Assembly: GCA_020433805.1 (NCBI GenBank)
Contig: JAGRBZ010000005.1
Location: 1-64,000 of the forward strand
Direction of reading: 5' to 3'
Length of the DNA stretch: 64,000 nucleotides
Source of the DNA: Anaerolineae bacterium
GTDB taxonomy: Bacteria; Chloroflexota; Anaerolineae; 4572-78; J111
The first letter of the stretch is position 1. The number at the start of each line of letters is the position of its first letter. The position numbers were made by a program, and so were the translations under genes. Below the pieces are notes generated by a model. It did no database searches. It had not been told where the DNA came from and saw only the letters and a list, made by a program, of their open reading frames with translations. This document shows, piece after piece, positions 36,206 to 59,132 of this stretch.

Positions 36206-36209
36206 AACA

Positions 36210-36440
36210 GTTCGTCGAGTTCGTTGAGTTCATTGAGTTTTTTGAGTTGATAGAGTTAGGGAGTTAATAGAGATATAAAGAGGATGAGCGTTAGGGGCTG
36301 ATGATACAACTTTTCAACCCTACTGCTTCCCACACTACCAACTTTTCAACTCCATAAACTCTATAAACTCCATTAACTCCACAAACTCTATATAACTCCA
36401 CAAACTCTATAAACTCCATTAACTCCACAAACTCTACAAC
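36210..36440. repeat. Word-repeat region GAGTTCGTT / AACTCTATAAACTCC
   Basis: The left part (36210-36262) is made of GAGTT-type words, and the right part (36338-36438) of the near-complementary AACTCTATA/AACTCCAC words, repeated about ten times. The two arms can pair imperfectly. The right arm matches 360-433. No gene is seen inside. Confidence 0.65.
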
Positions 36441-56816: not shown

Positions 56817-57069
56817 CATTGTTTTAACCAGAGAAGCCCAAAAGGATTACCAGAAACTTGCGAAAAGCGTCGCAAAGAGAATAAATCAATGTTTGGATAA
56901 TCTACGCGAGTACCCGTTGCAGTACCCCCAAGCTATCCCCTTAAAAGGCAGACTGGCCGGTTATTATCGTTGGCGTGTAGGAGATTGGCGAGTTGTTTAC
57001 GAAGTAAATGCGGACGAGCAAATTGTGGTCGTCCTACAAATCACTCACAGAAGCAGAGTTTATAAATAG
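56809..57069 (+). CDS. RelE/ParE-family toxin
   Basis: This 86-residue toxin-fold protein has the RelE pattern (MYDIVLTREAQKDYQKLAKS, LREYPLQYPQAIPLKGRLAG, YYRWRVGDWRVVYEV, THRSRVYK), with the basic Arg/Lys residues used to bind ribosome or gyrase targets. Its ATG overlaps the antitoxin by eight bases, showing translational coupling. RelE members cut mRNA on the ribosome, ParE members poison gyrase; the subtype cannot be told. Confidence 0.88.
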   Translation: MYDIVLTREAQKDYQKLAKSVAKRINQCLDNLREYPLQYPQAIPLKGRLAGYYRWRVGDWRVVYEVNADEQIVVVLQITHRSRVYK

Positions 57070-57204
57070 GGATAAATTTACTCGTTGATTTTCCCACATC
57101 GCGCTTTTAAGTAGATTACGATTAAGAAGCCGATGTACTTTATATGTGTTTTCAACGTCCCCAAAAGGCCACCGATACCGAAATGACCGATGAAGGTATA
57201 TAGT

Positions 57205-57339
57205 ATGTCTGATGAAGACATCGATACCTCTGATATTCCTCCTCTAGATGAAACCTTCTTTGCTCATGCCCAAATCCGTTTATCGGATCATAAAGCATTT
57301 AACCCTAAACCCACTAAATCCGCTGGAGACACAAAATAA
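57205..57339 (+). CDS. Orphan BrnA-like antitoxin fragment
   Basis: This short 44-residue frame reads MSDEDIDTSDIPPLDETFF and continues AHAQIRLSDHKAFNPKP. Its DIPPLDETFFAHA-type segment resembles the CopG/BrnA-type antitoxin N-terminus. AAGG lies about eight bases upstream of the ATG. No BrnT toxin accompanies it, and the CopG helix-turn-helix end is missing. It is probably a remnant, or a short stand-alone gene. Confidence 0.4.
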   Translation: MSDEDIDTSDIPPLDETFFAHAQIRLSDHKAFNPKPTKSAGDTK

Positions 57340-57490
57340 AAATGATAAAAACAGTTGCGACTTTTGCGCCTCTGGCGTTAAAATTCTTACCTCAATCTCG
57401 AAGATCCCTCACCGTTTAATACTGCGCATAGCCAAATATTTATTTCCTCAAATAAAAATCTCTTTACATTTCCAGAAACAAGCATAATTT

Positions 57491-57813
57491 GCCGAAACAT
57501 ATCTGTACAGACCTAAACATGTCCGTACAAATCGGAACATGTTCCTGCCCATCGGAATCATTGCGTAAATGTAGAGAACAATAAAGTACACGTTGGAACA
57601 TGTTTGTAAACGTTGGAACATTTGAGTGCGCGTTGGAACATGTTGCTACAGATATGGATCAATTGTGTAAATGTAGAGAACAATAAAGTGCGCGTTGGAA
57701 CATGTTTGTAAATGTTGGAACAATTAAGTACGCGTTGGAACATGTTGCTACAGAAGAGAATCATTGCGTAAATATAGCGAACAATAAAGTACAGGTTGGA
57801 ACATTTCAGTTAC
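57491..57813. repeat. Array of about 16 tandem units, 20-bp phased, core GGAACAT
   Basis: Sixteen consecutive units of 20-21 bp carry the core GGAACAT (variants GAAACAT, TAAACAT, GGAATCA, AGAACAA, GGATCAA, GCGAACA) at a mean step of 20.3 bp; the most conserved copies read CGTTGGAACATGTT. The first three units diverge, and the remainder form a super-repeat of about 101 bp (five units each) seen two and a half times: 57551-57650, 57651-57752, 57753-57813. It lies between the RelE/BrnA-like plus-strand genes and the end of the minus-strand AttH-like gene, not at a promoter. An open frame on the minus strand through it is repeat-derived. Confidence 0.85.
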
Positions 57814-57986
57814 GCGTGGATTCTAATCTCTCAGGAGTTGGAAAGCCATCATAAACTTCAAATGGAAAAAATATGGAGAAGTTCTTCTTAAAAGGGCGTA
57901 AAAAAACAACTCTGCGAACTCTGTGCCTTCTCCGCGTTCTCTGTGGTAAAAACCTCCGGCGGTCATCAGGCAATACACGCCTGCTC
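57814..57986. other. Gap before the AttH-like gene end
   Basis: This short stretch contains CTCTGCGAACTCTGTG-type word repeats (about 57910-57947). No gene is seen. Confidence 0.4.
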
Positions 57987-59132
57987 CTACATCCGGCCCT
58001 GCATACTCCCCGCATAACCGGTTAGCTCGATATACCCATAACCGCTCTGGCTGCCTTCCAGCTTAACCGCACCCTCCCAATAATTAAAAGAAACATTCAG
58101 CTCCTGGTCGTGCAACAGCGGCGTAATATGTAGATTAATACCGGCCTTCGGAATAGCAAACTGCCACTCGGCCGGATAGGTAGCGTCAGTATGAGGGCTG
58201 GTCCAGGTATCCAACACCGTCATCTCGACATCCTCCAGACGCAAATAGTCCGTGCTGCCATCGGGATTGACAATGATTCCGGCTGAGGCCGGTTCGAAAC
58301 GACCGTCTTGGAGGCGTATAACAAAAAACATCACCTCCCTATTATCATCAAGCTGCAAAGAGAACCAATCCCACCCTTCGGCGGCATCACCCAAAATCGA
58401 GGTACTCCACTCACGGTCCATCCAAGAATTGCCGGTCACCGCAAATGTACCGCGCGGCGTTGTGATTGTGCCGCTGGTGGTATTATTCGTCATCGAATAG
58501 TAATAACTGGCGCTTTCCACCGCGTTACTCTTTACACTTAAGCCATCATCTCCTTGTAACACTATTGGTTTCGTCTGCTCCAAAATAAAGTCGATGCCGA
58601 TGTCGCCATCGCTCGCTTTCACCCGCACCTTGCCCGGCTCGATTTCGCGCGCTTCCCAATCATCGATCCAAACGTGATAGGTCGGCAATCCCTGCGCCCC
58701 GGCCAATCCCGCTCCAGCCCGGCTGTACCGCTCGTGAGCCTCAAACGTTTCGCCGGTCACGTCGGTCACTGTGAAATGAGCAAAATAAATCTGGCGCGTG
58801 CCCCACTCCGAGGCTCGCTCCGGTTCGCCGGGGGCAATACCGCGCCGGAAGATGGTAAATTGATAGCCATAACGATTACCGTCGGCATCGCTGAGGTTGC
58901 CGGTGTAGTACCACCACTCCACCTGATAATCGGGATGGGGGCCGTGATCGGCAGGAAATTCAAAGTCAAACACCCTATCGGCTTTGGCAAAGCCTTCGGT
59001 ACCGTACGCTTCAACGTTTGCTTCCTGCACGTTGGCCGCTATTTCGTTCGATCCGCCATCGACCTGATTGTACTGTACCAACACCAGGCCGGACAGGACA
59101 ACAAGCGCGAAAATTATTAATACAAGACGCAT
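57987..59132 (-). CDS. CrtC/AttH-like lipocalin-fold protein
   Basis: This exported or membrane-anchored protein has 381 residues. It has an N-terminal hydrophobic helix (about 1-20), then a large domain with the family signatures WWYYTGNL (about 72-79), QFTIFRRG, NSWMDREWSTS (about 230-240, WMDREW) and a C-terminal end resembling the lipocalin-like domain of CrtC (carotenoid 1,2-hydratase) and AttH proteins. AttH is found with ABC transporters of the MacB/LolCDE type, here represented upstream. It may bind or modify a lipid or carotenoid exported by that transporter. The gene between them on the same strand is a DNA methyltransferase. The exact reaction is unknown. Confidence 0.85.
   Translation of the reverse strand: MRLVLIIFALVVLSGLVLVQYNQVDGGSNEIAANVQEANVEAYGTEGFAKADRVFDFEFPADHGPHPDYQVEWWYYTGNLSDADGNRYGYQFTIFRRGIAPGEPERASEWGTRQIYFAHFTVTDVTGETFEAHERYSRAGAGLAGAQGLPTYHVWIDDWEAREIEPGKVRVKASDGDIGIDFILEQTKPIVLQGDDGLSVKSNAVESASYYYSMTNNTTSGTITTPRGTFAVTGNSWMDREWSTSILGDAAEGWDWFSLQLDDNREVMFFVIRLQDGRFEPASAGIIVNPDGSTDYLRLEDVEMTVLDTWTSPHTDATYPAEWQFAIPKAGINLHITPLLHDQELNVSFNYWEGAVKLEGSQSGYGYIELTGYAGSMQGRM

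Follow-up and report, generated by a model that had tools for sequence, protein, structure and literature searches.

Two convergent genes in the 64,000-nucleotide stretch of Anaerolineae DNA analysed here (the window) are separated by a spacer that carries a run of short direct repeats. Is this array a docking site for several proteins, as the first-pass annotation proposed from the sequence alone, or the outcome of tandem repeat growth? To avoid circularity, a unit weight matrix was built exclusively from arrays elsewhere in this genome, those of contigs C1203 and C1070, and then run over the window. This profile recovered a single chain of 16 units occupying exactly 57491-57814, with a score of 218.9, compared to 17.4 for the runner-up and 13.5 for the best of five mononucleotide-shuffled windows, thereby confirming the 16 units at about 20 bp that had been annotated.

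The array is tiled by units of 20 or 21 bp with a mean step of 20.27 bp. These units fall into five types that follow each other in the order B-C-D-E-A, and this order recurs as blocks of 102 and 101 bp that share 88% identity. TRF returned periods of 20 and 102, and autocorrelation peaked at lags 10, 20, 40, 61, 81, 101 and 102, in agreement with the five-unit, 101-bp super-repeat described earlier. The annotated GGAACAT core was recovered as GGAACA(T/A), with several units deviating from it (GAATC, GGATC, AAACA). Furthermore, each 20-bp unit consists of two related 10-bp halves (4.6 matches out of 10 vs 2.6 by column permutation, p=0.003; p=0.004 when 45 units were pooled), and the repeat is therefore hierarchical (10, 20 and 101 bp). 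Neither this half-unit structure nor the recurrence of the pattern at other loci was part of the first-pass annotation.

The array is non-coding, as stop codons occur in all six frames, and a coding repeat was rejected on this basis. CRISPR arrays are made of identical repeats with unique spacers between them; no such spacers were found in the window array, where the units abut. Collapse of repeats during assembly is an unlikely origin, given the differences among most units and the position of the array inside a 66.6-kb contig. Its location at the 3' ends of convergent genes was verified, with stops at 57069 for the gene of a ParE-like toxin and at 57987 for the CrtC/lipocalin gene. A D12 methyltransferase is also found among the neighbours. 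Downstream of the array, a motif CTCTGCGAACTCTGTGCC...GCGTTCTCTGTGG (window 57909-57958) recurs near another array of this genome, on contig C388, with 90% identity over 49 bp.

Coordinates of the arrays and of the features surrounding the window array. G000 is the present genome.
Feature	Sequence	Coordinates	Strand	Evidence or context
Array of 16 units (degenerate, 20-21 bp), approximate consensus GTTGGAACAWNTNNGTACRC	Window (C804)	57491..57814	+	Profile chain score 218.9, profile from independent loci
Four leading units, more diverged, last one A-type	Window	57491..57571	+	Weak model match, E=0.014
Complete super-repeat 1, B-C-D-E-A, 102 bp	Window	57572..57673	+	Model match, E=5.9e-26
Complete super-repeat 2, B-C-D-E-A, 101 bp	Window	57674..57774	+	Model match, E=1.5e-27
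Partial third super-repeat, two units	Window	57775..57814	+	Model match, E=0.00125 for 57777-57820
Convergent intergenic spacer with array, 917 bp	Window	57070..57986	.	Flanking-gene ends; terminator scan
Flanking gene, ParE-family toxin	Window	56821..57069	+	Pfam PF05016, E=8.6e-16
Convergent gene on the other side, CrtC N-terminal / lipocalin-like protein	Window	57987..59132	-	Pfam PF07143, E=4.5e-60; PF17186, E=6.5e-46
Putative 44-aa ORF between flanking genes	Window	57205-57339	+	
Array, 19 units	G000, C1203	12055-12440		Between GlpX phosphatase gene and convergent Peptidase_Mx gene
Array, at least 10 units	G000, C1070	24956-25165		Extends off contig end
Mesobacillus harenae array	L275	3957-4108		
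Mesobacillus harenae arrays	L276, L277, L278, L279, L280			
Mesobacillus harenae array	L160	2313-2404		
Mesobacillus harenae array	L113	2738-2829		
Mesobacillus harenae array	L166	3388-3499		
Mesobacillus harenae array	L186	6995-7066		

We searched the genome for further arrays using BLAST, patterns and a sequence model; 150 of 485 candidates were scored, and more arrays are possible. The B-C-D-E-A order was observed at three loci at least, namely the window array (C804), C1203 and C1070, and the similarity among them is confined to the array, as their flanks have no common sequence. These loci, all in one genome, differ in their number of units (16 in the window array, 19 at C1203, 10 or more at C1070). 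At C1203, the first block is complete, whereas unit C is missing from the later ones; the second and third blocks share 99% identity and represent a recent in-register duplication of 82 bp. Together with the 88% identity of the window super-repeats, this pair bears out the recent tandem duplication suggested by the first-pass annotation. The B unit GAGAACAATAAAGT is strongly conserved across the seven aligned super-repeats, and C804 and C1203, the two super-repeat loci that are assembled in full, both lie between convergent genes.

A model built without them also matched the 20-bp arrays of contigs C720 and C774, which are more diverged (E about 1e-3). The C388 array, with unit AATTGGAAGATTTCGAGTAA, is also of a diverged 20-bp type; its match is not independently significant (E=0.5). 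Both the C388 and C720 arrays are located between tandem genes. The C720 and C774 arrays (L059 2150-2420, L058 4330-4620) are 86% identical and have about 60 bp of 5' flank in common, so that the block which spread extended beyond the array itself.

Outside this genome, no related array was detected in 24 other genomes of the order (11 of the family and 13 further ones), in 60 broader relatives searched by BLAST, or in the plasmids, phages and viral contigs searched. The exact two-unit pattern had zero matches across 84,980 species genomes, and the unit pattern gave isolated 3-mismatch matches only, with no array, in family f29. Weak model matches in relatives (best E=0.003, in G021) corresponded to no array at the nine inspected. 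In these searches, the genus is represented by a single genome, the present one. A search of titles and abstracts in the literature retrieved no description of this element. The first-pass annotation had held that absence of the unit from related genomes would weaken a functional role; the absence of the array from the relatives searched thus weakens the case for a conserved function.

Altogether, we consider it probable (roughly 0.6) that the window array belongs to a small family of satellite-like repeats (minisatellites), dispersed in the genome and specific to this lineage. As the five-unit pattern was found at two further sites of this genome but in no relative searched, a repeat of this kind is the most likely reading, ahead of a conserved regulatory element. 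The hierarchy, the in-register block duplication, the unit order common to unlinked loci and the lineage restriction all fit this interpretation. The 20-bp unit would have arisen by doubling of an ancestor of about 10 bp, the 101-bp higher-order unit would have formed from five such units after their divergence, and this higher-order unit may have multiplied in register via slipped-strand replication or unequal recombination, engines that we infer. Spacers between convergent genes would tolerate such growth, as added DNA would do little harm there, and the array would have little or no sequence-specific function.

Minisatellites and VNTRs are tandem repeats grown by slippage. The window array resembles the bacterial intergenic ones in its non-coding, head-to-tail units of tens of bases, in-register duplication and super-repeat composition that varies between loci, but its units are degenerate and nested, and one higher-order unit occurs at three unlinked loci. 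Diverged monomers in a fixed order, with the higher-order unit multiplied as a block, also recall eukaryotic alpha satellite; the present arrays, however, are tiny (about 0.2-0.4 kb) and reside in bacterial gene spacers, hence the analogy is one of organisation and implies no kinship. If satellite-like, the family is a compact bacterial case in which repeats have grown hierarchically (10, 20 and 101 bp) and unlinked loci have one higher-order unit in common; such patterns are usually discussed in connection with eukaryotic satellites. A report on archaeal Borg elements describes fast-evolving, lineage-specific tandem direct repeats that are virtually absent from hosts and a pervasive feature of these extrachromosomal elements (PMC9879509). 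Compared with the repeats described there, the present arrays are likewise lineage-specific tandem direct repeats, but they amount to a handful of degenerate arrays.

Several observations speak against a satellite-like origin. Although the unit types have diverged from one another by about 40%, the step is held at 20-21 bp; within unit types, the divergence between loci is 13% at core positions vs 29% elsewhere. Selection on the step or on core positions is possible and could account for both. Moreover, the two fully assembled super-repeat loci share the convergent setting, and dispersal to unlinked loci requires a mechanism beyond slippage alone.

The constant step, the lower divergence of core positions and the convergent setting of C804 and C1203 would fit a protein that recognises GGAACA and GTAC in each unit and, by covering the array cooperatively, turns the convergent spacer into a roadblock, nucleoid or anchoring site. 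The conserved B unit also fits such an array, which would be of a type so far undescribed, chromosomal and situated between convergent genes. We regard it as a possible but rather unlikely alternative, whose specific support is limited to the constant step and the mildly conserved cores. The 20.27-bp step is about 0.7 bp under two helical turns of 10.5 bp each; by arithmetic, the cores drift by about 25 degrees per unit, roughly one full turn across the array, so that only neighbouring units lie on the same face of the DNA. The same-face phasing claimed in the first-pass annotation thus stands for neighbours and is lost across the array. In addition, conservation within and between unit types is not significantly correlated (rho 0.24, p=0.16), the C388 and C720 arrays depart from the convergent setting, and we know of no candidate binding protein. 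This drift, the weak core conservation, the lack of excess curvature (see below), the absence of Rep or Par genes among the flanking genes examined and the absence of the array from the relatives searched leave the multi-protein nucleoprotein array proposed initially unsupported. The iteron-like site proposed alongside it fared no better. Plasmid iterons have a replication-initiation gene adjacent to them, and the window array shares with them direct repeats of about 20 bp near helical phase; however, no such gene was found among the examined neighbours of the window array or C1203, the units are degenerate, and the arrays are spread over several loci whose setting resembles that of a chromosome. 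Still more doubtful is a broader proposal, a new class of chromosomal docking arrays made of dispersed, degenerate 20-21 bp units with a preference for convergent spacers, higher-order duplication and analogues of separate origin in other phyla (for example Mesobacillus harenae).

The convergent location and a 10-bp subperiod, present in A and in T taken separately, would also suit a topological site that, like E. coli BIMEs, draws gyrase or another DNA-wrapping protein and relieves positive supercoils between convergent genes. Such a role is improbable given that a gyrase-like G+C periodicity of 10 bp was detected in none of the three arrays (p=0.20, 0.95 and 0.85). Curved DNA was likewise rejected, as predicted curvature was no greater than in shuffles under a wedge model checked on phased A-tracts. 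REP and BIME units are palindromic, hairpin-forming and present in high genomic copy number. The present arrays likewise consist of short units scattered among intergenic regions, as REP and BIME elements frequently are at 3' ends, but they have no REP-type palindromic stem (the sole inverted arms are 10 nt long and at least 49 nt apart), all units of an array share one orientation, and the candidates scored yielded three loci of the super-repeat and a small number of diverged arrays.

Dispersal of the copies, along with the flank common to C720 and C774, might instead reflect a mobile-element remnant, either a transposase-binding end with multiple sites or a non-autonomous element responsible for the spread of the array. 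This is slightly less probable still, since C804 and C1203 share no flank beyond the array, no transposase was found among their examined neighbours, and transposon ends usually carry far fewer units than the window array. Finally, a transcribed structured RNA or a Rho or intrinsic terminator region is the least credible explanation and was rejected: the array lies downstream of both genes and no terminator-like site was found by scanning the spacer, but folding of the array is no better than that of shuffles on either strand (z -0.47 and -1.15) and it has no Rfam covariance-model match.

A cross-phylum family was also considered. A three-unit TTGGAA pattern with 20-bp spacing occurs in 85 stretches in the 84,980 genomes; these are mostly unrelated minisatellites picked out by the pattern itself, with mixed gene contexts, and were not taken as evidence of kinship. 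At least 10 dispersed arrays with a 20-bp step (TTTTTTGGAATATATTCGAT) were observed in Mesobacillus harenae, most of them preceded by a similar leader (about TTTAGAATNATTATCGT) and about half between convergent genes according to rough ORF calls; seven of them were compared with Rfam and gave no match. Siminovitchia terrae carries two 20-bp arrays (L114 4142-4430 and L146 6680-7330), both between convergent genes, with units GTTGGAACGTTTATACGTGA and GTTGGAAGCTTTATTAGAGA, the latter in more than 30 near-identical copies.

The present genome is abundant in other short tandem repeats. An inverted repeat with TGTCATTTCG...GGAGAAATCCC adjoins two arrays (L006 3855-4010, L061 4350-4480) and is likely a separate dispersed palindromic element. 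Arrays of a 9-bp repeat arranged as inverted pairs were also observed at two genomic places (window 36209-36272 and 36348-36436; L224 18045-18110 and 18133-18243), where they form long hairpins on folding (z -5.5 and -5.7).
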